DNA of 35,809 nucleotides from Paludibacter jiangxiensis (GTDB lineage: Bacteria > Bacteroidota > Bacteroidia > Bacteroidales > Paludibacteraceae): positions 1 to 35,809 of the forward strand of contig CAMBSB010000036.1 of assembly GCA_945870155.1 (NCBI GenBank), written 5' to 3'. The notes beneath the pieces were generated by a model. The model was not told where the DNA came from and did not search any database. It saw only the letters and a program-made list of their open reading frames with translations. Each line of letters begins with the position of its first letter. The stretch's first letter is position 1. Position numbers and translations under genes: made by a program. Shown piece by piece: positions 7,712 through 34,845 of the stretch.

Positions 7712-7824
7712 ATAATTCAATTTAGAATAAACAACAAAAAGCTAGAAATCACTAAAACATTTACTGAAATAATTTGCTTTAAAACCAGATTATTAGTCTA
7801 TTGAAAAGAATAAAATTTAAAATA

Positions 7825-10800
7825 ATGACATTAAATAAACTTCGAATAATTACAACGCTTGTTTTAATGCTTTGTAACATAACGATATATGCACAAAAGG
7901 ATTTAGAAAAATTAATTAGCGACACTTTAACAATAATTGCTAACAAGCAAGCTTCAGTAGGCAAAGTAAATATTTCATCAATTGCCATCAATATTGAAGA
8001 AAAATCAATTTCTGTATTTGCCAACGAAAGATTATCAGAAATACCTATCCGCTTAACAACTGTTGATAGAATATATAAAATGATATCGAACGTAATGGGC
8101 TCAAAATATGCCGGTTACAAAGTCAATTGCATGACTGCCAATATTGAAATATCGTTTTTAATTCCAAATTTTTTCAGAACTGAATCTTATGATAATCAGC
8201 GATTAAAAAAATCAGATTTTACGATTACTCCCTTAATTACAAATACTTCCCGACCATATATTGCATCCAGTGGATTACAAAATAAGCACATAGCTTTGTG
8301 GCAAAGTCATGGTTGGTATTATAATCAAAAATCAGGCAAATGGATGTGGCAGCGTGCCAGGCTATTTCAAACAGTAGAAGATTTGTTTACGCAATCATTT
8401 GTGTTACCATATTTAGTTCCTATGCTTGAAAACGCCGGTGCAAACGTTCTCTTGCCACGTGAGCGGGACACACAAATTAATGAAATTATTGTTGATAATG
8501 ATATAAATAATGCATTAGGTAGATATTCAGAACATAACGACAGGAAAAGTTGGAAAACTGGAGAGGCAGGATTTGCAAATTTACAAAAAGTGTATAAGCA
8601 AGGCGAAAATCCATTTAAAATGGGCACTTACAGATTTGTTTCATCAATAACCGAAGATGATGAATTAACTTATGCTGAATGGACTCCAAATATTCCTGAC
8701 AATGGATTTTATGCTGTTTATGTTTCTTATAAATCAGAAGAAAAAAGTGTAACCGATGCCCGATATACAGTTTATCATAAGGGTGGAAAAACCGAATTTA
8801 GCGTGAATCAAAAAATTAACGGAGGTACTTGGTTATATTTGGGAACATTTAAATTTGAAAAAGGAAAAAACAGACAATATAAAGTTGTTTTATCAAATTT
8901 AAGCAAAACATCCAATAGAATTATAACAGCAGATGCCGTAAAATTTGGAGGCGGTTTGGGGAATATTGCTCGAAGTCCGAATGAAGCCGGAATTACTCAA
9001 AACGTAAAAAGTTCGGATAGTATTGGTTTGGCAAATGCCGTGATTTTACCAGTTGAAGTTAAGGAGCCAATTACAAGTAATTATCCACGCTACACTGAAA
9101 GTGCTCGATATTGGCTACAATGGGCCGGAATGCCCGACAGTATATATAGTAGAAACGAAGGCAAAAACGACTATACCGATGATTATCAATCACGTGGGTT
9201 GTGGGTAAATTATTTGGCCGGTGGCTCCTCAGTTTTGCCCTCTAAAGTTGGTTTGGGGGTTCCTATAGATTTCTCCTTAGCATTTCATACCGATGCCGGA
9301 ACCACTTTCAACGATTCAATAATTGGTATTTTAGGTATTTGTTCAGTTTCAAATTCAGCAGGTAACACAGTTTTTGCTAATGGCATGTCGCGTTGGGCTT
9401 CGCGCGACTTGACAGATATTATTCAAACTCAAATTACAGAAGATATTCGTAAAGTTTTTGCGCCGGAATTTACCCGTCGTGGCTTATGGAATAAGAGTTA
9501 TAGCGAATCGCGTACGCCAGAAGTGCCTGCCATGTTGCTTGAATTGCTTTCTCACCAAAACTTTGCTGATATGCGTTACGGGCTCGATCCACGTTTTAAG
9601 TTTCTTGTAAGTCGCGCTATTTACAAAGGAATGCTTAAGTTTTCCAGCTCACTTTCAGGCAGTCCTTATATAGTTCAACCTTTACCGGTTCGCGAATTTA
9701 GCTCCCGATTCATAGCTAAAAACAGGGTTGAATTGAGATGGCAACCTACAAACGATAGCATTGAACCAAGTGCTAAAAGCGAACACTATATTGTTTATAC
9801 ACGCATTGATGAGGGTGGATTTAACAATGGTATCGTAACCAATAACAATAAAATTGTTATGGAAATTCAACCTGGAAAAATTTATAGTTTCAAAATATCG
9901 GCTTTAAATGATGGTGGTGAAAGTTTCCCTTCCGAAATTTTATCAGTTTGCCGTATGCAACATGAACGCGGCAATGTATTGATTGTTAATGGATTTGATA
10001 GAATAAGTGCTCCGGGAAGTTTTGTTCAAAATCACACATCGGGTGGATTTAAAAATGATGATGATCCGGGAGTGCCCTATTTGAACGATTATAGTTTTAT
10101 TGGTAAACAATTTGAATTCGATCGATCAAAACCTTGGGTAACGGACGACAATCAAGGTTTTGGTGCAAGTTATTCAAATTATGAGACTCAGGTTATTGCC
10201 GGAAATACTTTCGACTACCCTTATTTACACGGTAAATCTATCAAATTAGCTGGTTTTTCTTTTGTTTCATGTTCGAAAGAATCCGTTTTAAACAAGGCTA
10301 TTTCGTTGAAAGATTATCCTATAGTTGATTTGATTTTGGGCAAACAAAAACAAACTTTTATAGGAAATGCAAAAAAAGATATGGAATTTAAAACTTTTCC
10401 ATTAGCTTTGCAACAAAGTTTACTTACTTATTGTGATCAAGGAGGTAAATTGTTGGTTAGTGGAGCTTATATTGCATCCGATTTTTACAATTCAAATTAT
10501 ATAAAAATTGAAGAAAAACTCTTTTTGGAGAATACTTTAATGATTAAATTGAATTCCGGAATAGAAAATCTTAGTTCTAAAGTTAAAATGGTAAATTCCC
10601 CATTTAGTGAATTTAACAGAGGAGAGTTTTCTTTTTACGATTTGCCCAACAAGTATTCATATTATCTTGAATCGGCTAATGCTATTGAACCATCGGGATT
10701 AGGAGCATTTACAATATGCAGATACAATGGTACAAATTTAAGTGCCGGAGTGGCTTACAAAGGGAAATATAAACTGTGCGCTTTAGGTTTTCCATTTGAA

Positions 10801-10872
10801 GTTATTCAATCTGAAAAAGAACGAAATAAATTGATGGAATCGGTTTTGAGTTTTTTTGGTAGTGAAAGATGA
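7825..10872 (+). CDS. Large exported Amidase_3-like protein with inserted golvesin/xanthan-lyase-type domain
   Basis: A 1015-aa exported protein. The ATG at 7825 gives a clean signal peptide (MTLNKLRIITTLVLMLCNIT, then IYAQ); the frame is open to a TTG at 7801, which would add eight basic residues. Four residues fit the Amidase_3 zinc amidase site: H162 (WQSHGWYY), E213 (PRERD), H488 (AFHTDAG) and the catalytic-type E573 (LLELLSHQN). Between E213 and H488 lies an insertion of about 275 residues. It contains a beta-rich module (about 265-380, 'YAEWTPNIPDNGFYAVYVSY' region) like the golvesin C-terminal/xanthan-lyase carbohydrate-binding domain. A fibronectin-III-like segment follows at about 620-705, then a C-terminal domain of unknown type. 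Such proteins are often labelled xanthan lyase, but the visible catalytic residues argue for peptidoglycan amidase activity. Direct activity is unproven. Confidence 0.8.
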   Translation: MTLNKLRIITTLVLMLCNITIYAQKDLEKLISDTLTIIANKQASVGKVNISSIAINIEEKSISVFANERLSEIPIRLTTVDRIYKMISNVMGSKYAGYKVNCMTANIEISFLIPNFFRTESYDNQRLKKSDFTITPLITNTSRPYIASSGLQNKHIALWQSHGWYYNQKSGKWMWQRARLFQTVEDLFTQSFVLPYLVPMLENAGANVLLPRERDTQINEIIVDNDINNALGRYSEHNDRKSWKTGEAGFANLQKVYKQGENPFKMGTYRFVSSITEDDELTYAEWTPNIPDNGFYAVYVSYKSEEKSVTDARYTVYHKGGKTEFSVNQKINGGTWLYLGTFKFEKGKNRQYKVVLSNLSKTSNRIITADAVKFGGGLGNIARSPNEAGITQNVKSSDSIGLANAVILPVEVKEPITSNYPRYTESARYWLQWAGMPDSIYSRNEGKNDYTDDYQSRGLWVNYLAGGSSVLPSKVGLGVPIDFSLAFHTDAGTTFNDSIIGILGICSVSNSAGNTVFANGMSRWASRDLTDIIQTQITEDIRKVFAPEFTRRGLWNKSYSESRTPEVPAMLLELLSHQNFADMRYGLDPRFKFLVSRAIYKGMLKFSSSLSGSPYIVQPLPVREFSSRFIAKNRVELRWQPTNDSIEPSAKSEHYIVYTRIDEGGFNNGIVTNNNKIVMEIQPGKIYSFKISALNDGGESFPSEILSVCRMQHERGNVLIVNGFDRISAPGSFVQNHTSGGFKNDDDPGVPYLNDYSFIGKQFEFDRSKPWVTDDNQGFGASYSNYETQVIAGNTFDYPYLHGKSIKLAGFSFVSCSKESVLNKAISLKDYPIVDLILGKQKQTFIGNAKKDMEFKTFPLALQQSLLTYCDQGGKLLVSGAYIASDFYNSNYIKIEEKLFLENTLMIKLNSGIENLSSKVKMVNSPFSEFNRGEFSFYDLPNKYSYYLESANAIEPSGLGAFTICRYNGTNLSAGVAYKGKYKLCALGFPFEVIQSEKERNKLMESVLSFFGSER

Positions 10873-13401: not shown

Positions 13402-14613
13402 TTAATTTCTAACTAATTTGTTCACATTTCCTTCCTTGTCTTTTACTAAATAGATACCTTGTTTTAAATTTGAGATATTAACTTGCGAAGAATTTATAAC
13501 CTCTATAAGCTTGTTTCCTGATATATTATAGATTTGAACATCTGTAGCACTATTTAAATTAAGTGTTTCACCATTAGTAGGATTTGGAAAAATTTCTAAA
13601 ATTCCATTTGCTTTAGTATTATTTAATCCACTTAAAGTTTGAACCAATTCAACTACTAAAGCTTCACTCAAGTTAGTGAATGGATTTTTTGTTGCAGTAA
13701 GGGTAATATGAGTTCCATAATTAACATAATCTCTACGGTTTGTTATACCATCAGCATCATTAATCTCAGCTTGTAAAAGAAATTTGTCGCCAATACTAGG
13801 TGCAACCGTTGAACTATATATTTTTTGACCAGCTAGTTTTGTACGAACGCTTGAAAATAAAGTCTTCCAATCATCATCTCTAAATTCAATATAATAAGCA
13901 TTTTCAGTAGAATTATATATACCCGCAACAGTACCCACATGATCTTGAGGAGCACCGCTGGTAGTACTCACCGGATTGTGTTTTGGAGCCCATAATATAG
14001 CTTCAGGATTGGTCGATTCGGTTAATTTTGCAGGGTAAAAAGTGTGAAGCAAGCCGTTGTCTAATCTGGAATACCTCTGGGTACCAGCTTGTAATTCAGG
14101 CGTATGCGGTGTCAACCCAATGTTAATCTGATCCATTCTGTTAGATTGATAAACTGTGCCATCACCAAGTCCTGCATTTGTTGGAATATTTACACCAGTC
14201 ATAAATGAAGGCAAATAACCGGTACGGTAACCATTATGTTTGTCACTATAAATAATCTTATCATCCGTATACCGCATTAACATATAGTAATGGTTGTCAT
14301 CCCAAATAATTTTGTATTTGAAACTAATATCTGACGGACCTGAGAATGCCCCTTCTGGGGAAACAGCTACCGCCGGGGCTACCCAATCTATAACCGGAGA
14401 AATTGCAAATGCTTGTTTCCATACCGCATGTCCCCATGCTGCATCAGTCGGATCACCATCAATATTTGGTGCAACTATTACTTTGGGGGCTTGATATAAA
14501 CGAGCTATATCTGTTATGGGTACACTCGGATGAATTGTATTATTTTGTGCGTGCAATTGTATTACAAATGCTAAAAGCATAACTGCATTGATTAAAGTAA
14601 ATTTATTTTTCAC
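13402..14613 (-). CDS. Secreted ethylbenzene-dehydrogenase-related domain protein with T9SS C-terminal tail
   Basis: A 403-aa protein with a signal peptide (about 1-22, ending LHA). Residues about 40-310 resemble the EB_dh family, the heme b-binding gamma-subunit-like domain of ethylbenzene dehydrogenase and related molybdoenzymes. The early 'IDGDPTDAAWGHAVWKQAF' is characteristic, and 'WDDNHYYMLMRYTDDK' follows. The last 70 or so residues, beginning IFPNPTNGE and ending in a basic 'NKLVRN', form a type IX secretion sorting domain, so the protein should cross the outer membrane. No other respiratory subunits are nearby. It could bind heme or act as a carbohydrate-binding-like module, since this fold is shared. 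It begins 55 bp after the branching-enzyme gene and may be co-transcribed with it. Confidence 0.8.
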   Translation of the reverse strand: MKNKFTLINAVMLLAFVIQLHAQNNTIHPSVPITDIARLYQAPKVIVAPNIDGDPTDAAWGHAVWKQAFAISPVIDWVAPAVAVSPEGAFSGPSDISFKYKIIWDDNHYYMLMRYTDDKIIYSDKHNGYRTGYLPSFMTGVNIPTNAGLGDGTVYQSNRMDQINIGLTPHTPELQAGTQRYSRLDNGLLHTFYPAKLTESTNPEAILWAPKHNPVSTTSGAPQDHVGTVAGIYNSTENAYYIEFRDDDWKTLFSSVRTKLAGQKIYSSTVAPSIGDKFLLQAEINDADGITNRRDYVNYGTHITLTATKNPFTNLSEALVVELVQTLSGLNNTKANGILEIFPNPTNGETLNLNSATDVQIYNISGNKLIEVINSSQVNISNLKQGIYLVKDKEGNVNKLVRN

Positions 14614-14668
14614 GGACTTTAAAATTAAAAATATTTATATTGAGAGAATAATTCCAAATTACCCACTA

Positions 14669-16669
14669 TTATTGCTTTTTTAATACAAAAGCTGTGCGCG
14701 CAGGTATATATAATTTAAGCCATTCTTTTCCCGATACATCTTTAGGTTCCGACTGTGTAACATGTTCAATTTTTTCATCTATCAAATCAAAACCACCAAA
14801 CAATTTATTATCAGAGTTTAATACCATTTTATATTTACCTTTATCTGCCAATATTCCATAATCGGTAAATGATTTTTCGCCATTAAAGTTGTACACAAAT
14901 ACAAATTTACCTCTCTGATAAACAAGTATTTTATCGTCTTCTTTATCCCATAACTTATTAACTTGTAGTTTGTTGAATGATGGGACAGAATTTATTAACT
15001 CTATCATAGCTCTGTCAAATTCACCAAGGGCGTGGTACAAAAACTTCTCATTATCAACTAATTCCCACTGGCGGCGGGCATATTTATGTGACCAGCCATT
15101 GCCTTCACGCGGGAAATCTATCCATTCAGGGTGTCCAAATTCATTGCCCATAAAATTAAGATATCCACCGTTTATAGTGGTTGCAGTTACAAGGCGAATT
15201 ATTTTATGCAAAGCTATTCCCCTATCCACTATTAGTGTATTATCTCCACGTTGCATGTGCCAATACATTTCGGCATCTATTAATCTGAAAATTATAGTTT
15301 TATCTCCAACCAAAGCCTGATCGTGACTTTCAGCGTAGCTGATGGTTTTTTCGTCAGAGCGTCTGTTAGTTAGTTCCCAATAAATGTGACCTACTTTCCA
15401 GTTCTCATCCTTTACTTCTTTTATGTATTTTATCCAAAAATCAGGTATTCCCATCGCCATTCTATAGTCGAATCCTATGCCTCCATTTTCCACTTTAGTA
15501 GCTAAACCAGGCATACCACTCACCTCTTCTGCAACACTAATTGCATAAGGATTCACTTCGTGTATCAATTTATTGGCTAAAGTAAGATAACAAATAGCGT
15601 CTCCATCTTGATTTAAATTGTAATATGATTCATATCCATTAAAATCTTCACCTAAACCATGACTTCTATAGAGCATTGATGTAACTCCATCGAATCGGAA
15701 GCCATCAAACTTATATTCCTCGAGCCAAAATTTACAATTTGAAAGTAAAAAATGAAGTACCGAAGGTTTTGCATAATCAAAACAAAGTGAATCCCAAGCA
15801 GGATGCTCACGACGAGTGCCACCATGAAAATATTGATAAGGTGTGCCATCAAAATGACCCAAACCTTCAACTTCGTTTCTGACAGCGTGTGAATGAACAA
15901 TATCCATTATAACGGCAATGCCTCTACCATGCGCATCATCTATCAAATGTTTTAATTCTTCGGGTGTACCAAAGCGTGATGAAGCAGCAAAAAAACTGGA
16001 AACGTGATATCCAAACGAGCCATAATATGGATGTTCTTGTATGGCCATAATTTGAATGCAATTATATCCTGCATGTGCTATGCGGGGTAAAATTGTTGTT
16101 CTGAACTCTTCATAAGTCGACACTTTTTCCTCTTTGCTCGACATGCCTATGTGACACTCGTAAATTAGAAGCGGATCGGTTTGTGGTTTAAACTTTGTGT
16201 TTTTAAATTTATAGGTTTGTATTGGATTCCATACCTGAGCACTAAAAATTTTAGTTTCATCGTCCTGAACTACTCTTCTCGACCATGCCGGTATGCGTTC
16301 TCCACTGCCTCCATCCCATTCTATCAACAATTTATATAGTTGAGAATGAGTCATGGCATAGTCATGCATTTTAAGTTCCCAAACTCCATTGGGCATTTTT
16401 TTAAGTTGATAATCCGATTGTCTTTGCCAATTATTAAAATCACCTATCAAAAAAATTGCAGTTGCATTAGGTGCCCATTCCCTAAACATCCAACCATCAG
16501 TAAGCCTATGTAAACCAAAATATAAATAACCTGTTGCAAAGTCTGACAAAGTTTGGTTTTCGCCCGTAAGTCGCTTTTCAACAAGATTAAAATAATCAAA
16601 TCTTCCTTGTATTGCATCAGCAAAAGGAACTAAATAAGGATCGGAATTAACTAAAGGTAATTGGTTCAT
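14669..16669 (-). CDS. glgB: 1,4-alpha-glucan branching enzyme (GH13), eukaryote-like type
   Basis: GlgB creates alpha-1,6 branches in glycogen by cutting and transferring alpha-1,4 chains. The 666-aa protein has an N-terminal CBM48-like domain (about 50-135, 'MFREWAPNATAIFLIGDFN'), a GH13 barrel and a C-terminal all-beta domain. Catalytic residues are D327 in GFRFDGVTSMLY (nucleophile), E381 in SVAEEVSGMPG (acid/base) and H449-D450 in YAESHDQAL (transition-state stabiliser). The 'VAEEVSGMPGL' and 'AESHDQALVGDKT' strings resemble eukaryotic branching enzymes more than the E. coli GlgB subgroup, as is usual in Bacteroidota. Glycogen synthase and phosphorylase genes are absent from the window. 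A -7 box lies about 40 bp upstream. Confidence 0.95.
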   Translation of the reverse strand: MNQLPLVNSDPYLVPFADAIQGRFDYFNLVEKRLTGENQTLSDFATGYLYFGLHRLTDGWMFREWAPNATAIFLIGDFNNWQRQSDYQLKKMPNGVWELKMHDYAMTHSQLYKLLIEWDGGSGERIPAWSRRVVQDDETKIFSAQVWNPIQTYKFKNTKFKPQTDPLLIYECHIGMSSKEEKVSTYEEFRTTILPRIAHAGYNCIQIMAIQEHPYYGSFGYHVSSFFAASSRFGTPEELKHLIDDAHGRGIAVIMDIVHSHAVRNEVEGLGHFDGTPYQYFHGGTRREHPAWDSLCFDYAKPSVLHFLLSNCKFWLEEYKFDGFRFDGVTSMLYRSHGLGEDFNGYESYYNLNQDGDAICYLTLANKLIHEVNPYAISVAEEVSGMPGLATKVENGGIGFDYRMAMGIPDFWIKYIKEVKDENWKVGHIYWELTNRRSDEKTISYAESHDQALVGDKTIIFRLIDAEMYWHMQRGDNTLIVDRGIALHKIIRLVTATTINGGYLNFMGNEFGHPEWIDFPREGNGWSHKYARRQWELVDNEKFLYHALGEFDRAMIELINSVPSFNKLQVNKLWDKEDDKILVYQRGKFVFVYNFNGEKSFTDYGILADKGKYKMVLNSDNKLFGGFDLIDEKIEHVTQSEPKDVSGKEWLKLYIPARTAFVLKKQ

Positions 16670-26570: not shown

Positions 26571-26595
26571 TCCCCCTTTAGGGGGTTAGGGGGCA
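26571..26595 (-). repeat. CCCCTAACCCCCTAAAGGGGG repeat element, copy 2 (at the ABC gene 3' end)
   Basis: Read on the minus strand it is TTGCCCCCTAACCCCCTAAA followed by GGGGGA, with the palindromic core CCCCCTAAAGGGGG. It contains the last codons and stop of the ABC-transporter gene. With copy 1 it makes an inverted pair about 165 bp apart between convergent genes, where it may act in termination. Confidence 0.85.
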
Positions 26596-28835
26596 AATGG
26601 CTGGGGAGAGTTATTTTTATTAAACAATTCAAAATACTTCCCTTTCAGTGAAATAAGTTCTTGATGACTACCGGATTCCACCACTTCGCCCTGTTGAAAG
26701 AAAAAGATCAAATCTGCCATTTCCACAGTCGAAAGTCTATGACTAATGATAATAGCCGTTTTATTGTGGGCTAACATTTTCAAGCTATTAATAATTTGTG
26801 ATTCAGCTTCGGCATCCAATGCACTCGATGGTTCATCCATAATAATAAATGGAGAATTGCGATAAAATGCCCTGGCAATGGCAATTTTTTGCCACTGGCC
26901 TATACTTAATTCTTCTCCTGTTTTAAATAAATTTCCAAGTAAGTTAGAATAACCATCCGGCAAGTTTTCAAGTACTGTATCTATTCCTGCAGCTCGTGCT
27001 GCCTTTTTTGCTCTTTCTAAATCAATCGGGGCATCAATATCGCCCAAACCCAGATTTTCGAGTGCAGAAATATTATACAAAGCAAAATCCTGAAAAACAG
27101 CTGTAATATTTTTACAAATTTTATTTTGACCAATAACTCTAGCATCTTTTCCATCGTAAAGAATGTGCCCTTCCACCGGTTGATAAAAACCACATAATAA
27201 CTTGATTAGCGTAGTTTTACCCGATCCATTCGCTCCAACAAATGCGACTGTTTTACCTGCAGGAATGCTGATGTTAATCGATTTTAAAGCATCTCTTTTG
27301 CTGGTTTCGTACTTAAACCGAACATTTTCAATTTTTATTTCCTTTTCAAGTGTAAACGTGGCGCTTTCTTCCGATGAATCGGAAGAAGTTGGCATTTTTA
27401 AAAAAGCCATAAAATCGTTTAGGAATGTATTGTCTTCCAGTATTTTAGTTAATGAGTAGAACAAATCATTCAATACTGAGTAACCTCTCTGAAAAGCAAA
27501 AAAGAACAAAACCACCGTGCCTATTGAAATTGCTCCATTCAGTTTTAAATACGATACATATCCTAATGCAACAAAAATAAGTAATACGGCAAATATTTGT
27601 GCCGAGATATTAACTCTTAACTCTGATTTTCGCAAGGAAATTTTCTCTTCAAATAAATCTGCTTGTTTCTGGTTAAACCTTAGTTTGAAGAACTGAAAAA
27701 ACCCAAATAATTTCATCTCCTTTGCAAAAGGGAAGCCGGTAAGTACACGGTTGAAATAATACATTTCACGTTCTTTGGTACTTTGCGTTTCTTTGAGTTT
27801 GTATAATTTGCGTGAAAACTTCAGGCGAAAAAACACACCCGGGAGAATTGCAATAATTAGTAATGCTATTAAATACCACTTGATTGTAATAAATAAACCT
27901 ATTAAAAAAAACGATGCTGCAATTGACCTAATTGCAGTTAGTAACTCGTTGATAATTTTGATAGGACGGAACGATGCTTCTTGTACAGCACGATGTATTT
28001 TGTCTTGGTCGGTAGGGCTTTCGTAATGCGACAAATCCAGCGATGCATGTTTGCTATGTAGTTTTTCGTATATACGTAGTATAACCGATTGGGAAAGTTT
28101 TTCTGAGAAATAGGAACGAATTTCAGTCAATATTCCACTTATTAAAAATACTGAAGCTGTTGCTATTAATAGTAAGATGAAATTTAACTGAATGTCGGGA
28201 GTTTGAGTAGAAATATTAGTCAGTGAGTCAATAAGTAGTTTGATACAAACTATAAGCACAAAAGGCATAACTCCTTGTAAAATAGCTATAATCGCATTTA
28301 TTATCAAAAACTTTGAAGAACCTTTGGCAACTAAGTTTACATTTTTGATCAGCGATTTTAAAATGGAATTAAAGTTCGATAAATGGCTTTTGATGAGAAT
28401 TTGAAAATTGTACAACGGTATGAAAACATTGTGAAAATTCAATGCAATAAACCTTTGCATTCTCATAAATGGACTGTTTGTGTTTTTTAATTTATCATTT
28501 CTTTTAAACGAAATTATTTTCCCAACCAATTCTTTTTCGGTAAAAGGTGCGTCATTATGATAATTCTTATCACCTTTAGCAATAAATATTTTCGCACCGT
28601 TTATCTCTTTAATGTCTATCAATCTGTGTGCTACCAGCGTGTTGTTGTGCCTAAAAACAACCAAGTCGCCCTTTGTTAAACTTTCCGAACTGCAGCTTTC
28701 AATATAACCATAATCGTCCTCTTTTAAAGTTGGGAACATGCTGAATCCCTGCATTTTCAACCCCAAAGTACGATTATCTCCCAGCAAAGTTGCGGTCATA
28801 CTGAGCAATTCGTTTTTAAGAATTTCAGGCTTCAT
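26586..28835 (-). CDS. S24/S26 signal-peptidase-like domain fused to an ABC exporter
   Basis: A single intact 749-aa frame with two parts. Residues 1-115 are an S26-like serine peptidase domain: Ser32 in MQGFSMFPTL (28-37), 'KGDLVVFRH' (55-63), and His70 in LVAHRL in the position of the Ser-His (SipW/ER type) signal peptidases, then 'AKGDKNYHNDAPF'. Residues about 170-460 hold an ABC exporter membrane domain with roughly six segments. Residues 498-749 are the ATPase: Walker A GANGSGKTT (534-542), signature LSIGQ (643-647), Walker B IIMDEPSSALD (664-674) and switch His699. All ATPase motifs are intact. There is no membrane anchor before the protease. By analogy with C39-peptidase bacteriocin exporters, it may trim and export a peptide. 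It overlaps the HPr-kinase-like gene by 11 bp. Confidence 0.85.
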   Translation of the reverse strand: MKPEILKNELLSMTATLLGDNRTLGLKMQGFSMFPTLKEDDYGYIESCSSESLTKGDLVVFRHNNTLVAHRLIDIKEINGAKIFIAKGDKNYHNDAPFTEKELVGKIISFKRNDKLKNTNSPFMRMQRFIALNFHNVFIPLYNFQILIKSHLSNFNSILKSLIKNVNLVAKGSSKFLIINAIIAILQGVMPFVLIVCIKLLIDSLTNISTQTPDIQLNFILLLIATASVFLISGILTEIRSYFSEKLSQSVILRIYEKLHSKHASLDLSHYESPTDQDKIHRAVQEASFRPIKIINELLTAIRSIAASFFLIGLFITIKWYLIALLIIAILPGVFFRLKFSRKLYKLKETQSTKEREMYYFNRVLTGFPFAKEMKLFGFFQFFKLRFNQKQADLFEEKISLRKSELRVNISAQIFAVLLIFVALGYVSYLKLNGAISIGTVVLFFFAFQRGYSVLNDLFYSLTKILEDNTFLNDFMAFLKMPTSSDSSEESATFTLEKEIKIENVRFKYETSKRDALKSINISIPAGKTVAFVGANGSGKTTLIKLLCGFYQPVEGHILYDGKDARVIGQNKICKNITAVFQDFALYNISALENLGLGDIDAPIDLERAKKAARAAGIDTVLENLPDGYSNLLGNLFKTGEELSIGQWQKIAIARAFYRNSPFIIMDEPSSALDAEAESQIINSLKMLAHNKTAIIISHRLSTVEMADLIFFFQQGEVVESGSHQELISLKGKYFELFNKNNSPQPFAP

Positions 28836-29691
28836 GAGCTTTTATAAAATGAACAACACTCTGATTGGGTACAAAGCCCAGGTCATAAACCGGTACTTGC
28901 ATACTTATTTCGGTGAAAATACCCAGTCGTTTTTGTATAAATTGCTTGTCGAAGTTGTTCTGAATGCAAAAAGCCATTACACGTGTAACAGCCATGGCTC
29001 CAACTAGTTTTTTTATTTTATTTTCCGGCGAATGACTAATTAAATATACCGCACTTAATGGTGCAACTTTAGGCATGTCCTTGTAATACATGGGGGTATT
29101 ATGAACATTAAATCCAGTTTCTGTTTTCCTGATTATCAATCGGTCATCGTTAATTATTTGGCTTCCGGCTTCCGACCATATCATCGACATAGTACTTTTT
29201 CCTGCACCCGAAAAACCTGAAAACATGCGACCTTTTTCGCCATCGAAAGCACAGGAAGCATGCATCATCACGGCATCGCTGGTCAGGGTCATATAATGCA
29301 TAATTATAGGTCCCATAGGATATTTAAGGGGCATAATTATGTTATCGATTGGTTCGGAATAAACTTTCCAGTGGTTGAAATGTTCATTTAATAGAGCAAT
29401 TTGCTGTATTTCATTGGTTTGTTGGTTGTAAATAACAAAACCTAACTCTGAGTTTATGCTGTAAATAGTATAGAACTTTTGTGTTTCGTTTTTAGCTTCA
29501 AAAACCTTTTGTGTTTCATCAAAACTAAATTCAGGCCATCCGGCAATACATTCAATGTCTATATCTGGTTTATTAACTATGTTTTTTAGAAATGGCAAGT
29601 ATCCATCTTCCAATTCAATAAGCGTTTCAGAATGCAGTTGAATTGCAAAATCGGCAATTGACAAGCTAAAAGCTTTTTGTTGATTTTCCAT
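28825..29691 (-). CDS. HPr-kinase-like (HprK-related) P-loop kinase
   Basis: A 288-aa protein resembling the C-terminal catalytic domain of HPr kinase/phosphorylase and the HprK-like kinases of some lasso-peptide clusters. Motifs: H144 in VMMHASCAF, in the position of the HprK catalytic His; P-loop GFSGAGKST (159-167); 'IINDDRLIIR' (179-188), matching the HprK 'DD' segment. The N-terminal 120 residues do not resemble the HprK N-terminal domain. No HPr or other PTS gene is nearby, so the substrate is probably not HPr. It starts 13 bp after the PqqD-like gene and its end overlaps the exporter gene. A role in phosphorylating a peptide or carrier is an inference from this context. Confidence 0.85.
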   Translation of the reverse strand: MENQQKAFSLSIADFAIQLHSETLIELEDGYLPFLKNIVNKPDIDIECIAGWPEFSFDETQKVFEAKNETQKFYTIYSINSELGFVIYNQQTNEIQQIALLNEHFNHWKVYSEPIDNIIMPLKYPMGPIIMHYMTLTSDAVMMHASCAFDGEKGRMFSGFSGAGKSTMSMIWSEAGSQIINDDRLIIRKTETGFNVHNTPMYYKDMPKVAPLSAVYLISHSPENKIKKLVGAMAVTRVMAFCIQNNFDKQFIQKRLGIFTEISMQVPVYDLGFVPNQSVVHFIKAHEA

Positions 29692-29704
29692 TTAATAATC
29701 CAGG

Positions 29705-29983
29705 CTATTTTTTCAGTAATACATCCATATTAGCTAAAAATGCAGAAACATCTTTGCGTGCAGTTTCTGCATCTACCTCAAATTCGTCGGTCAATAATTT
29801 TGCAATATCTTCATCGCTAGCATTTTCGCTAATACTTTCCCAAAGGAACTTAGCTGTTTCGTTTAAAGTAAAAAGTTCACTCATTTGAGCTACATTGCCT
29901 GTGAGTGGCACTATTATCAATTCGCTGCCCACTTCGCGTGCAACAAATTTCGATTTCATTTTGTAAAGTGTTTGTATGTCCAT
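29705..29983 (-). CDS. PqqD-like peptide-recognition protein
   Basis: A 92-aa protein with the PqqD fold, the RiPP recognition element that binds leader peptides and presents them to modifying enzymes. The N-terminal beta wing is seen as 'KSKFVAREVGSELIIVPL' (10-27), followed by the conserved 'FTLNETAKFLWESI' (38-51), the PqqD 'LN.ta..iW..l' motif. A winged-helix part ends with 'DVSAFLANMDVLLKK' (78-92). It is the first gene of the operon with the HprK-like kinase and the protease-exporter. The start at 29983 is preceded within a few bases by an AATCAACC repeat, and no Shine-Dalgarno is seen. Confidence 0.88.
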   Translation of the reverse strand: MDIQTLYKMKSKFVAREVGSELIIVPLTGNVAQMSELFTLNETAKFLWESISENASDEDIAKLLTDEFEVDAETARKDVSAFLANMDVLLKK

Positions 29984-29985
29984 TT

Positions 29986-30025
29986 TTGGTTGATTGGTTG
30001 ATTAGTTTCCCGATAGCTATCCGGG
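29986..30025 (-). repeat. AATCAACC repeat and CCCGAT hairpin in the leader of the PqqD-like gene
   Basis: On the minus strand the leader reads CCCGGATAGCTATCGGG (30025-30009, an inverted repeat with one bulge), then ACTAATCAACCAATCAACC directly before the ATG. The repeat matches the style of the pdxA leader array, and the hairpin shares CCCGAT/ATCGGG with 2169-2187. Confidence 0.65.
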
Positions 30026-30104
30026 TGGTTAACTGGCGAATAGTTAATAATTAAACTCTTTTTACGATAATTTAAACCCTCTTAAATTAGAATTTCCTAC
30101 AGGA

Positions 30105-30112
30105 CAAAAATA
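30105..30112 (-). promoter_or_regulatory. -7 box of the PqqD-HprK-exporter operon
   Basis: Minus-strand TATTTTTG matches TAnnTTTG about 122 bp before the PqqD-like ATG. No TTTG is found at the correct spacing upstream, so support is partial. Confidence 0.4.
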
Positions 30113-30795
30113 TACATAAATTTTCAATTATTCTTTATGCTATTAAAAAAAGATCTATCCACCAACTCCGAGAAGGAGTGTAAATTGGGATAAATAAGTT
30201 ACGGGTCAAGAGAATTGATAACTTTCAAGTTAAATAACACGCAAAATCAACAATATACGAAGTTTCCAACTTTTTAGCACTTTCAGTTCTGTTAATATAA
30301 AATAATAAAATTAAATATGAATAAACAATTTACATTAATAAAAAAACCCAACAAAATCTTGAATTTTAAGTAACAGAAGCAGGATAATTAATATTGGCTT
30401 ACTTAATTTTTGCATTTATAATTTATAAAATATCAATGGCATACAAGGATACAGTGATTTTATACTTACAGTAAACTATTTTCCTCTCCCTCAAGCGGGA
30501 CAAGTGTTGTGGTGAGCCTGCCGCAGACAGGGTAGAACGAAAGTAAATCTCAAAAAAGCAATATATAATAAAGAATTGATAATCAATTAGTATATGTTTA
30601 CGTCAATCAGTTACTCAATAAAATAACATGGTGCGAAAGTTGAATTGATTTATATAAAATAAAAACACACATATACATAAAGAATAACAAGATGATAAGT
30701 AGAACTTAAAAAAATCTAACTGATTATAATTGAAGAAGGCAAACCCAAGGCTTTGCTTAACAATATAAACATCAATAAAAAAAACTCAATTATCA

Positions 30796-33700
30796 CTAAC
30801 CATTATATTCTCCAGGAGTAACTCCAAAATACGATTTGAAACATTTACCAAAATACGAAGAGTCATTGAACCCTACTTGATAGGCTATCTCGTTAACATT
30901 CAGGTCAGTTTTTTTTATTAAATCCGAGGCTGCATTCATACGAATTTCAAGTATCAACGCACTTGGTGTTTTACCCGTTATCGATTTTATTTTTCGGTAA
31001 AATTGTACACGGCTCATGCCTACATCCTGACTGAACGAGTCGATGCGCAAATCGGGATTGTCAATATTCTTTTTAATATAATCAAAAACCTTGGATATGA
31101 ATTTTTCTTCGGTGGATGGCAATTCGGTGTTGATATTGGCATAAACACTGTTTTTATTGAACGAATTTCGAATGCGTCTACGAATGCTAATAAGGTTATT
31201 TACACGTAGTTGCAATAATTCAGGATTAAATGGTTTTACAATATAATCGTCGGCTAGGGAGTTTAGGCCTTCCTTTATTTGCTCCATCCCCGAAAGTGCT
31301 GTGAGTAAAATGATTGGTATATGATCAGTTACTTCGTTATTTTTCAGCTTGTTACAAAGCTCAATGCCGCTCATATTCGGCGTCATTATATCACTTATAA
31401 TTAAATCAGGCACAAATTCCACTGCCATTTTACAGCCAATCAGACAATCTTCGGCCTCAATAATTCGATAATTTTCGATTAAAAGCGATTTTACATAGCT
31501 CCGCACATCTTCATTATCTTCGACCACCAATACCGTGAAATTTTCTTTTTTCTTCAACTCTTCTAACGTTGTTCCTTTTGTAACTACAACCTGATTGTCA
31601 GGCAAATCCACAATGATAGAACGGTCGTGTTCCACTGTTTTCAAATTCGACAATTCTGCTGGAGAAAAATGCTGATTGCCCAACGGAAACAGAATTTTGA
31701 ATGTTGAACCCTTGCCAATTTCACTTTCGGCCCAAATTTTCCCCAAATGCAACTCAACAATGCTTTTGCAAAGATTTAAACCAATTCCTGTACCATAAAT
31801 ATTAGCTCCTTCGTGGTTGTGCGCTTGATAAAATGGCTCAAATATTTTTTCCAGTTCACTGGTTTCAATGCCATTCCCATTGTCCGAAATTTCAATGAGT
31901 AATGCACCTTGAGTTGGAAATATTGCATTTGTATAATCCTTAATATTTGTAGGCAGTATTTCGTTCACCTGAATTTTTACCTCACCGTTTTCGATGGTAT
32001 GTTTAAATGCATTCGATAATAAATTGAAAAATACTTTTTCCACTAAAATTGGGTCAAACCAAGTATCAATATTTTTATTTTTATTTTCGAGCGTTAGATT
32101 TATGTTTTTAGTTGTAGCCAATTCTTTGAACGACAACACAATATCATCAATAAACAGATTAAAATCCACCTGCGATACGTTCGGTTTCATAAAACCGGAT
32201 TCTAGTTTACGGAAATCCATGAGCTGGTTTACTAACCAAAGCAAGCGTTGTGCATTTTTGAAAATCAGTTCTAATTTGGGTCGCAACCACTCGGGTAATT
32301 CCACTTTCGACAGAATTTCATTCAAAGGGCCAATAATCAGCGTGAGCGGAGTGCGTAATTCGTGCGAAAAATTAGTGAAAAGACGTACACGCATTTGGTG
32401 ATTATCCTCCAAATTTCGTTGTTCAATTTGCTTGATGGTAATGTCGGTTTCGAGCTGCTGTTTATTTAGGATATAATAAATAAAACCACCCAAAATAGAT
32501 ATAATCAACAGTATATAAATAAGATATGCCCACCACGTTTTCCAAGGTGGAGGTAAAATGTGAATGTCAAACGAAGCACCTTCCTCGTTCCAAACGCCAT
32601 CGTTGTTGCAGGCTTTTACACGAAATGTGTATGTACCCGGCGGGATGTTAGTGTAAGTAGCTGAACGCTCGTTGATAACCGAATTCCAGTTTTTATCAAA
32701 CCCTTCGAGCATATAGGCATACTGGTTTTTGTTGGGAAAAACGTAATTCAAAGCCGCAAAATAAATGGTAAACGCAGCCTGATAGTACTTTAACTCTACT
32801 TCTTTATCCGGAAAAACCGATTCGGTTGTTGAAGCATTGTCCGACACGTTATCTGCCCACACTTTAAATTTGCTTATAACCACATTGGGAACGATGGGAT
32901 TTTTTACGATCCGATCAGAATTAAACAGCACAAACGAATTGACACCACCAACGATAAACGAATTGTCGCTCAAGCGCATAGAGGCGTGCGTTACAGTTTC
33001 CTGAACCGGATATCCATTGCTGTTTGTGTAATTGTCAAACACTTTTTTTGTTGGATTGAATCGCGAAATTCCTTCGAGGGTTGAAATCCAAAGCGAGCCA
33101 TCTACATCTTCCATTATACCACAAACCGCATCGTTCAGCAATCCGTTTTTATGATTAAAAGTTTTAAAATTTCCTGATTTTTCGTTGTATAAACAGATTC
33201 CACCGCCATAAGTTCCTACCCAAAGTTGCTGTTGTGAGTCTCTGAAAATAGCACTAACATGACTGTTGCTGAGCGAATTGCTATCGGGAGTTGCCTGCAA
33301 ATGTTGCAATTCTTTCGTTTTGAAATTATAGCGATATAAACCGTCTGAACGAGTTCCTACCCATACCGTTTGTTCTTTATCCAGCAATACATCCTGCACA
33401 TTTACAGGCATAAAGAGTTGTTTCGAACCTTTTATAGGAAAACGTTTTTGGAACTGATTTGTAGCAGGATTAAACATCAAAAACGGGTCGTTGGTGCCGG
33501 TGGCTATCCAATAATTCCCAGTAGCATCTTTCGTCATCGCTTTAACATAGCCATAATTGAAGTTAGGGATGCTGCGTTCAATTCGTTTTGTTTGCAGATT
33601 TAAAACGTGAAGTCCGCCTGCATAAATACTAACCCAAAGTTTATCGTTATCGCGGTAAATAAATTTAACTTCGTTAAATGTAGAATTCACACCCGTGTTA

Positions 33701-34845
33701 ATCTCCTGATAACTATTGTTTTTGCGATTATAAGTAATCAATCCATTATCAGTTCCCAACCAGATTATTCCGCCAATTTCGGTAACGGAATTTATACAAC
33801 CAATTTTTTCTTTACCCGAAACAATGGGCGTAATCTGATTAAAATAATTGCTGTATTTACTGTAAAAATCGATGCCGCCATTCCAGCTTCCTACCCAAAT
33901 ACTACCGCTTTTATCTTTGTAAAGCGTAATTACTTTTTCGTCTTTTAATTGTCCGTTCCGGATGTTGAGTTGCTGTGTAACTATCTTATTTTTAATGTCA
34001 TATATCAACAATCCTTTGCGGGTTGCCAGCATCAAAAAGCCCGGTTTGTATTCTACCATGTATCCAATTTGCTCGTGGTCGAACGAAACGCCATTCCGCA
34101 TTTTAAGCGGAATTTGTTCAAATGTTTTGGTATCGGGATTGAATTTCTTTAAACTATTCGACCACATACCAGCCCAAAGCGTGTGTTCTGCGTCTTCGAA
34201 AAGCGTATAAATATAATCGTTGGCAGGAAGTGGATAATTGCTTAATTTACTTGTTTTTACATCAAAAACAAAAAGGCCATCACGCACGGATGCAAAACAA
34301 ATATTTCCATCAGCCCGCTGAATAAGCCAAATAATAGCATCGTTGGTGTAAATGTGTTTGAAATTGTCAGTGTTTTTCTGATAAACATCCAATCCTTTGG
34401 TAGTTCCAATCCAGGTGTTATCCAATTTATCGTTTAATAAATGCTTGATAGCCAAACTCGAAACCGAAGATTTATCTTTTTCATCATGAAAATAACGCTT
34501 GAATTTCTCCGTTTTTGGGTCGAAATAATTCAAACCATGATGTGTGCCAATCCAAAATCCTCCGGATTTGGTTTCAGCTATTGAAGTTACATCGCTGCTG
34601 CTAATGCTGTTTTCGTCGGTTAGCGAGGAGCGATATATTTTGAACGATGTTCCGTCGTACCGATTAAGTCCATCGCGCGTACAGAACCACATGTAGTTTT
34701 TACTATCCTGCAAAATTCTAATAACCGTATTTTGGGAAAGTCCTTCTTTTACAGATAGATTGCTGAACTGAAAATTGTCGTCCTCTGCTGAAAAACAGTG
34801 GATTGTGACAAATAATAAAGTAAGAGTCAGTATTCTCAAACGCAT
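30796..34845 (-). CDS. Hybrid two-component system regulator (HTCS), one-protein sensor and AraC activator
   Basis: A 1349-aa inner-membrane regulator that senses oligosaccharide in the periplasm and activates nearby polysaccharide-utilisation genes. Order: signal peptide (about 1-20, ending CFSA); a double seven-bladed Reg_prop propeller, seen as many 'D..G.lWigT..GL..y' repeats from about 25 to 680; Y_Y_Y domain (about 695-765); one membrane segment (about 772-793); HisKA with H828 in NFSHELRTPLTLIIGPL; HATPase_c (about 935-1060); receiver with D1152 in IISDIMTPNMSG; AraC-type double HTH (about 1245-1349, 'GFNDSSYFGKCFKSYFGVTP'). All parts are intact. It is divergent from the beta-helix gene at 35025, its likely target. 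Confidence 0.97.
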   Translation of the reverse strand: MRLRILTLTLLFVTIHCFSAEDDNFQFSNLSVKEGLSQNTVIRILQDSKNYMWFCTRDGLNRYDGTSFKIYRSSLTDENSISSSDVTSIAETKSGGFWIGTHHGLNYFDPKTEKFKRYFHDEKDKSSVSSLAIKHLLNDKLDNTWIGTTKGLDVYQKNTDNFKHIYTNDAIIWLIQRADGNICFASVRDGLFVFDVKTSKLSNYPLPANDYIYTLFEDAEHTLWAGMWSNSLKKFNPDTKTFEQIPLKMRNGVSFDHEQIGYMVEYKPGFLMLATRKGLLIYDIKNKIVTQQLNIRNGQLKDEKVITLYKDKSGSIWVGSWNGGIDFYSKYSNYFNQITPIVSGKEKIGCINSVTEIGGIIWLGTDNGLITYNRKNNSYQEINTGVNSTFNEVKFIYRDNDKLWVSIYAGGLHVLNLQTKRIERSIPNFNYGYVKAMTKDATGNYWIATGTNDPFLMFNPATNQFQKRFPIKGSKQLFMPVNVQDVLLDKEQTVWVGTRSDGLYRYNFKTKELQHLQATPDSNSLSNSHVSAIFRDSQQQLWVGTYGGGICLYNEKSGNFKTFNHKNGLLNDAVCGIMEDVDGSLWISTLEGISRFNPTKKVFDNYTNSNGYPVQETVTHASMRLSDNSFIVGGVNSFVLFNSDRIVKNPIVPNVVISKFKVWADNVSDNASTTESVFPDKEVELKYYQAAFTIYFAALNYVFPNKNQYAYMLEGFDKNWNSVINERSATYTNIPPGTYTFRVKACNNDGVWNEEGASFDIHILPPPWKTWWAYLIYILLIISILGGFIYYILNKQQLETDITIKQIEQRNLEDNHQMRVRLFTNFSHELRTPLTLIIGPLNEILSKVELPEWLRPKLELIFKNAQRLLWLVNQLMDFRKLESGFMKPNVSQVDFNLFIDDIVLSFKELATTKNINLTLENKNKNIDTWFDPILVEKVFFNLLSNAFKHTIENGEVKIQVNEILPTNIKDYTNAIFPTQGALLIEISDNGNGIETSELEKIFEPFYQAHNHEGANIYGTGIGLNLCKSIVELHLGKIWAESEIGKGSTFKILFPLGNQHFSPAELSNLKTVEHDRSIIVDLPDNQVVVTKGTTLEELKKKENFTVLVVEDNEDVRSYVKSLLIENYRIIEAEDCLIGCKMAVEFVPDLIISDIMTPNMSGIELCNKLKNNEVTDHIPIILLTALSGMEQIKEGLNSLADDYIVKPFNPELLQLRVNNLISIRRRIRNSFNKNSVYANINTELPSTEEKFISKVFDYIKKNIDNPDLRIDSFSQDVGMSRVQFYRKIKSITGKTPSALILEIRMNAASDLIKKTDLNVNEIAYQVGFNDSSYFGKCFKSYFGVTPGEYNG

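Follow-up and report, generated by a model that had tools for sequence, protein, structure and literature searches.

A probable LPP-like RiPP operon of Paludibacter jiangxiensis and its probable precursors, scattered beside T9SS-type cargo genes

In this work, we are presenting an analysis of a three-gene operon, encoding a PqqD-type protein, an HprK-like kinase and a peptidase-exporter fusion, found in a 35,809-nucleotide stretch of Paludibacter jiangxiensis DNA (Bacteroidota; GenBank assembly GCA_945870155.1, contig CAMBSB010000036.1), which is called here the window. It is best read as belonging to a Bacteroidota system for ribosomally synthesized and post-translationally modified peptides (RiPPs) resembling the linear polyphosphorylated peptides (LPPs), in which one operon would serve many scattered precursors, each of them encoded with a cargo protein of the type IX secretion system (T9SS) kind. 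The original prediction, according to which these proteins recognise, phosphorylate, trim and export a ribosomal peptide, is supported as largely right. The gene set, the catalytic residues, the conservation of the leader, the co-occurrence across genomes and the pairing with cargo genes were observed directly; phosphorylation, cleavage, export and contact of the peptide with its cargo are what we infer. Genomes, contigs and loci are given below as G, C and L numbers, G000 being the genome of the window.

The three genes were predicted to lie on the minus strand with a 13-bp gap followed by an 11-bp overlap, and the coordinates of the open reading frames (ORFs) agree. Amino acids are abbreviated as aa.

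29705-29983, minus strand: PqqD-type discrete RiPP recognition element (RRE), 92 aa, presumed leader-peptide binder (PF05402)
28825-29691, minus strand: HprK-like kinase, 288 aa (weak library matches, alignment, AlphaFold2 with Foldseek)
29260-29262, minus strand: His144 codon of the kinase (sequence and alignment)
29194-29217, minus strand: kinase P-loop GFSGAGKS, aa 159-166 (sequence and alignment)
26586-28835, minus strand: Sec11/SipW-type signal-peptidase-like domain fused to an exporter of the ATP-binding cassette (ABC) type, like MsbA and the peptidase-containing ABC transporters (PCATs), 749 aa
28476-28835, minus strand: peptidase domain, about aa 1-120 of the exporter
28740-28742, 28626-28628 and 28551-28553, minus strand: peptidase Ser32, His70 and Asp95 (alignment)
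27501-28310, minus strand: transmembrane domain of the ABC exporter, aa 176-445 (PF00664)
26829-27290, minus strand: nucleotide-binding domain, aa 516-669 (PF00005, E=1.1e-28)
29984-30795, minus strand: intergenic region upstream of the operon, precursor-free here; many relatives have a precursor nearby

The smallest protein matched PF05402 (Pfam, E=9.9e-16), in line with its earlier description as PqqD-like, and among its homologues, the window included, N41 is kept in 49 of 52, D78 in 48 of 51 and F82 in 48 of 51. Matches of the kinase in the domain libraries were weak: PEPCK_ATP at 2.2e-6, barely over the Pfam cut-off, Hpr_kinase_C at 0.04, below it, and the NCBIfam model HprK_rel_B at 1.3e-8, far under its cut-off. 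Its AlphaFold2 model (pLDDT 91.8) had PEPCK and HPr kinase as the best Foldseek matches, at a modest level (best E 1.7e-5, query TM about 0.2-0.5), and by sequence alone HPr kinase reached E=0.012 against the PDB, no better. His144, the P-loop GFSGxGKS (159-166, x varying) and NDDR (181-184) are the same in all 29 aligned proteins, the window's among them, which bears out the predicted HprK-like kinase with His144 and an intact P-loop.

In the third protein Pfam recognised ABC_tran (1.1e-28), ABC_membrane (2.3e-8) and, below the cut-off, Peptidase_S24 (2e-4); the best NCBIfam match was MsbA at E=5.6e-82, yet below the cut-off. Top PDB matches of its AlphaFold2 model (pLDDT 78.0, pTM 0.63) include TM287/288, PCAT1 (6v9z) and MsbA. 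S32, H70 and D95 are invariant in 26 of 26 fused proteins, and in a wider set including stand-alone forms S32 and H70 occur in 18/18 and D95 in 17/18. A profile of 18 such domains searched against solved structures had SEC11C/SEC11A as the best match (E 1.9e-12). The originally predicted S26-like peptidase fused to a complete ABC exporter is confirmed and can be specified as the Ser-His-Asp (SipW/Sec11) kind, nearest to SEC11. Like PCAT1, the protein carries a leader peptidase ahead of an ABC exporter; the peptidase differs from that of PCATs in being a Sec11/SipW-type serine and not a C39 cysteine enzyme.

This enzyme set has a published analogue, and the scattered, cargo-paired precursors are the new part. 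As described, LPP (LppA-K-B-S-D-N; Popov et al., Nat Commun 2026, PMC13381572) comprises an RRE, an HprK-like kinase, a SipW-like peptidase, an MsbA-like exporter and an NTP transferase, the last being a core gene. The present system shares the discrete RRE, the kinase, the SipW-like Ser-His-Asp peptidase, the MsbA-like exporter and the YxxPx[V/I] half of the leader, so the claim that the operon matches no standard RiPP class did not hold. Leader cleavage in vitro needs the RRE in LPP, and S29, H68 and D93 are catalytic in LppS (PMC13381572), a spacing which S32/H70/D95 resembles here. The D-x3-F spacing of the PqqD protein equals that of LppB D70/F74, and N41/D78/F82 were equated with LppB N33/D70/F74 by motif spacing alone, without the LppB sequence (PMC13381572). 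As in LPP, no macrolactam cyclase was recognised: Pfam scans of the 24 window ORFs, with smaller ORFs left unscanned, gave no lasso cyclase, radical SAM or LanM domain, as predicted.

A conserved small gene was looked for near homologous operons and was found. At least one small ORF with a YxxP motif occurs in 18 of the 31 stretches around the operons of close relatives (L037-L067), and at order level 14 of 29 loci have a peptide gene no more than 400 bp upstream of the kinase, in 13 cases between PqqD and kinase. From 20 operon-side peptides of 50-63 aa, which had no Pfam match better than E=0.045 (nor, for the five compared with NCBIfam, better than 0.06), we built a profile. In G000 it gave 29 matches at E<=1. 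Of the 28 at E<=0.01, 26 are full copies (E<=6.3e-12); the other two are fragments, of which one contains a stop. The substrate had been expected close to the operon; the probable precursors are instead encoded in trans beside T9SS-type cargo genes, with none on the window's contig. The copy number of G000 may include a binning error; in GC content and tetranucleotide profile the peptide loci are like the window, but like relatives too, hence these measures do not discriminate. High copy numbers are not peculiar to G000, because 17-21 matches were counted in each of five other genomes (G156, G176, G190, G192 and G216).

The leader follows the consensus YxxPx[IV]xxIx[LI]Dx[ED]ISLx[LM]x[S/T]. 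Among 88 profile-found peptides, one of which is without the YxxP part, Tyr is kept in 86/87, Pro in 87/87, Asp in 87/88 and Ile in 84/88; position Tyr+20 is Ser or Thr in 87/87 (81 S, 6 T) and Tyr+15 a small residue (S77, A7, N2, T1, C1). In LPP, with the leader YxxPxVLxHQxIxFETxxS, cleavage occurs after T-1 and the phosphates are on core S3 (PMC13381572). We prefer cleavage after the Tyr+20 Ser/Thr over cleavage after the small residue at Tyr+15, because LPP has hydrophobic residues at -5/-3 and Thr at -1; the likeliest cut would thus be [L/M]-x-[S/T]|, compare F-E-T| in LPP. Cores counted from the Tyr+20 residue have a median of 27 aa, with 17% Pro and 13% Asn (56 peptides).

A same-strand gene stands directly upstream of 60 of 63 peptide ORFs (median gap 30.5 bp), and these genes mostly encode large proteins whose C-terminus resembles a type IX sorting domain. 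Ten full-length cargo proteins chosen by size were compared with Por_Secre_tail (PF18962): eight matched at E<=0.01, with one over the cut-off, and two gave no match. For G000, 150 of 293 candidates were scored, which gave at least 150 PF18962 matches, and the peptide-linked C-termini form a separate subclass beside that family. Their profile was made by aligning the C-termini of 26 cargo proteins of G000 and has a conserved stretch some 127 positions long. With it, 28 domains of G000 scored over 80 bits and none of the others more than 58. A peptide follows 26 of these 28 in the genome on which the profile was trained, and 33 of 34 in three genomes outside the training (17/17 in G156, 8/9 in G144, 8/8 in G202), which were picked for many peptides, not randomly, and whose operon-side peptides are part of the peptide profile. 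The high-scoring domains without peptide are C13:40948 and C190:1302 in G000 and C10:28916 in G144; three low-scoring ones (46-55 bits) also lack it. In the reverse direction, 59 of 61 peptides have a domain match upstream, a circular figure as the profile was built from the same proteins.

Across the 48 genomes of the genus, peptide and domain counts rise together (Spearman 0.94, and 0.95 for the 32 genomes with any). With the domain limit at E<=1e-18, domain and kinase occur together in 26 of them, kinase alone in 1, domain alone in 2 and neither in 19. The counts disagree in G216 (27 domains, 18 peptides), in G174 (two domains, no peptide) and in G166, G178 and G196 (peptides and no domain). 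The complete genome G001 has one kinase and one precursor match (L141:6433-6609), the latter 24 bp after a gene for 975 aa, and no domain over the limit. In other families, the gene next upstream matches the genus-trained domain profile at nine of 11 stand-alone peptide loci (not L201 and L206). In G202 and G156 (L218:2033-2800, L219:3228-4000), the gene after that of a related T9SS-like domain protein of lower score encodes a protein of roughly 200 aa. This protein has a hydrophobic stretch at its N-terminus and, by eye, a C-terminus like PSLPIGxGxxFLxxLAxVF...K, and the two are perhaps another cargo/partner pair.

Kinase and peptide also go together by genome. Both are present in 26 genomes of the genus, the kinase alone in 1 (G174), the peptide alone in 5 (G166, G172, G178, G196, G220) and neither in 16 (Fisher p=1.3e-7). 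In the order (393 genomes; kinase E<=1e-20, peptide E<=1e-3) the corresponding figures are 27, 4, 6 and 356 (p=8e-32), both p values being overstated as the genomes are related; the assemblies differ in quality. From 207 genera, 26 have a kinase match and 27 a peptide match.

A close kinase (E 1.5e-77 or better, at least 44% identity) was found in 33 of 300 genomes of the family, including the own one, which has a single kinase, and in 27 of the 48 genomes of the genus (G226 counted as without kinase). Another 110 family genomes gave distant kinase matches alone (E 8.8e-16 or weaker, 21-37% identity); these belong mostly to genus g21 and were not counted as operons, and in eight stretches around distant kinases (L068-L075) no ORF matched the window's exporter. 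All three genes, PqqD, kinase and exporter, were recovered at 26 of the 32 close loci (L032, L037-L067), and in the six others (L038, L041, L052, L059, L061, L067) at least one gene was interrupted, ran off the contig or escaped the picking of ORFs. The order-level loci come from 29 of the 30 kinase-bearing genomes besides the window's (G459 left out): PqqD is upstream in 24, a peptidase is present in 27, an ABC exporter in 21, and peptidase and exporter are fused in 5. From these counts the order PqqD - peptide - kinase - peptidase - exporter therefore looks ancestral, and fusion with precursor dispersal would be the state of the Paludibacter-like group. At phylum level, 2 of 394 other genomes (G798, G708) have the kinase at E<=1e-20. 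There, at L227:5749-9703 and L228:910-4850, kinase and PqqD homologues lie beside a large protein with a C-terminus that looks T9SS-like by eye, and profiles found no peptidase, exporter or peptide within 11-12 kb.

The system also differs from LPP in several ways. It is found in Bacteroidota, while LPPs are called Bacillota-restricted in the available text, with most, not all, peptidase homologues from Bacillota (PMC13381572; a text search of that part for 'Bacteroid' gave nothing). Peptidase and exporter are fused in the Paludibacter-like group; 26 full precursor genes are dispersed in trans and paired with T9SS-like cargo, whereas the window's cluster has none and 14 of 29 order-level loci have one; the second leader half is without VLxHQxIxFET and so departs from the full LPP consensus. 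Given these differences in the remaining leader, together with those in phosphosite, gene fusion, precursor dispersal and cargo pairing, we file the system as LPP-like, not as LPP. Paeninodin-like lasso peptides (PMC13381572) share the RRE, the HprK-like kinase, a [Y/W]xxP leader and, at some loci here, the NTP transferase, and differ in their lasso cyclase and B2 cysteine peptidase. Neither was recognised here in the Pfam scans of 24 window ORFs or among nine families recurring in at least 4 of 66 loci (one family, in 4 loci, unidentified), the rest of the genome being unsearched; some loci of distant kinases are in this neighbourhood set, and at least one locus is counted twice (L007 = L044).

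We consider it probable that this operon does the central work of maturing and exporting the peptides in an LPP-like RiPP system. Its substrates would be peptides of about 50-63 aa, nearly all encoded just downstream of genes for large secreted proteins with T9SS-like domains. The PqqD protein would bind the YxxPx[IV] leader and hand the precursor to the HprK-like kinase for phosphorylation on Ser/Thr; the cytosolic Ser-His-Asp peptidase domain of the exporter would then cut off the leader, and the fused MsbA/PCAT-like exporter would deliver a roughly 27-aa Pro/Asn-rich peptide into the periplasm. We lean, by a narrow measure, to a further step in which the peptide acts there with the secreted protein of the neighbouring gene. 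That it is a phosphopeptide partner dedicated to T9SS cargo, which binds, anchors or decorates it, each cargo having its own peptide, is put forward tentatively, as a proposal that may well turn out wrong.

Several observations weigh against this reading. No precursor adjoins the operon in the window, by a six-frame motif scan of the window and a profile search of its contig. The core Ser3 phosphosite of LPP (PMC13381572) has no positional equivalent: a conserved Ser three residues past the preferred site is absent from the 88-peptide alignment, and 3 of 56 cores in this register are without Ser/Thr, so that the phosphate could instead sit on the leader or on the Tyr+20 residue. At most 11 of 66 loci (4 Pfam-checked, L195 maybe spurious) have a member of an NTP_transf_5-type family next to the operon, the window not among them. 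Order-level genomes with kinase and no peptide match are G337, G410, G530 and G611, those with peptide and no kinase G421, G460, G533, G552, G587 and G596, and a stop lies inside the kinase frame in 2 of 31 kinase-bearing genomes (G516, G575). The cargo is assigned to type IX by domain likeness, and the 80-bit limit was chosen after the score gap had been seen. Core and domain distances correlate weakly (r=0.28, permutation p=0.001, 56 pairs; in G000 r=0.18, p=0.135, 24 pairs), and leader and domain more strongly (0.42); the pairing may stem from joint duplication and not joint function.

The alternative faring best keeps the RiPP pathway and takes the peptide for an ordinary secreted antimicrobial or signal, the cargo pairing being the spread of a two-gene duplication unit. 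Copy number does vary widely among relatives, as in a duplicating cassette (28 matches in G000, 5.8 Mb; 2 copies in the near relative G160, 3.8 Mb), and cores diverge more than leaders (mean distance 0.68 vs 0.41). Nevertheless, the pairing recurs in several genomes and at nine of the 11 stand-alone loci of other families, and many cores keep PPxGPxE...NDPFK, unlike diversified bacteriocins, which leaves this alternative rather unlikely. The kinase could also activate a carboxylate, for example the GPxE Glu, for a lactam or cargo linkage that leaves no Ser/Thr phosphate. PEPCK is among its closest folds, beside HPr kinase, and 48 of 82 peptides have a Glu eight residues past the preferred cut, which is a lasso-like ring spacing. 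We regard this as improbable: this Glu is not kept throughout, the nine recurrent families (one unidentified) include no recognised cyclase, and the nearest characterised pathway uses its HprK-like kinase for Ser phosphorylation (PMC13381572). A true substrate unrelated to the peptide, such as lipid A or an exported polysaccharide, would agree with MsbA as the best, below-cut-off NCBIfam match of the exporter and with the sugar-nucleotide-like surroundings, by eye, of the one full NTP transferase gene, and is very improbable given the strong genome co-occurrence, the 14 of 29 order-level loci with a peptide gene right before the kinase, and the RRE and leader motif.

The NTP_transf_5 gene just mentioned lies in G000 on contig C48 (L226:5560-6750; a second copy, 9233-9529, is a short fragment) amid genes that look by eye like dTDP-rhamnose/surface-sugar genes, a setting reminiscent of the link between LPP clusters and capsule loci. 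In G001 such a gene (L054:11392-12618, Pfam E=4.7e-63) is convergent with the exporter gene and directly adjoins it. Upstream of the window's operon, 30796-34845 encodes a 1349-aa hybrid two-component system (HTCS)-type regulator (Reg_prop, Y_Y_Y, HisKA, HATPase, receiver, AraC); it was rejected as a part of the operon, a similar gene being directly upstream of PqqD in just 2 of 32 close loci (L049, L052). Elsewhere in the window, 7801-10872 encodes a 1023-aa protein with golvesin-like, fibronectin III and weak amidase_3 matches, and 13402-16669 a Por_Secre_tail protein with a weak CBM9-like match, which adjoins an alpha-amylase-family enzyme and whose T9SS domain falls outside the peptide-linked subclass (30.5 bits by the cargo-domain profile).

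No paper joining type IX secretion with PqqD was found in a search mostly without subscription papers, and no description of peptide/T9SS cargo pairing stood among the literature matches listed, as judged by titles and abstract starts. The available text of a survey of Bacteroidales RiPP clusters does not mention HPr, S24, S26 or type IX (PMC10352776), and the LPP paper says that no biological role is known for LPPs or paeninodins (PMC13381572). Obtained results place LPP-like machinery in a second phylum, with likely precursors tied gene by gene to one secreted-protein class, and its role can therefore be tested directly; G001, with one kinase and one precursor, is an uncrowded test system. 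They suggest a RiPP pathway with genome-scattered substrates (26 full copies here), of the kind missed by cluster-based mining. A-LPS attachment is a maturation route for T9SS surface proteins. The T9SS partner reading, if true, would mean a second, peptide-based maturation route beside A-LPS, and would give LPP-type peptides a role.

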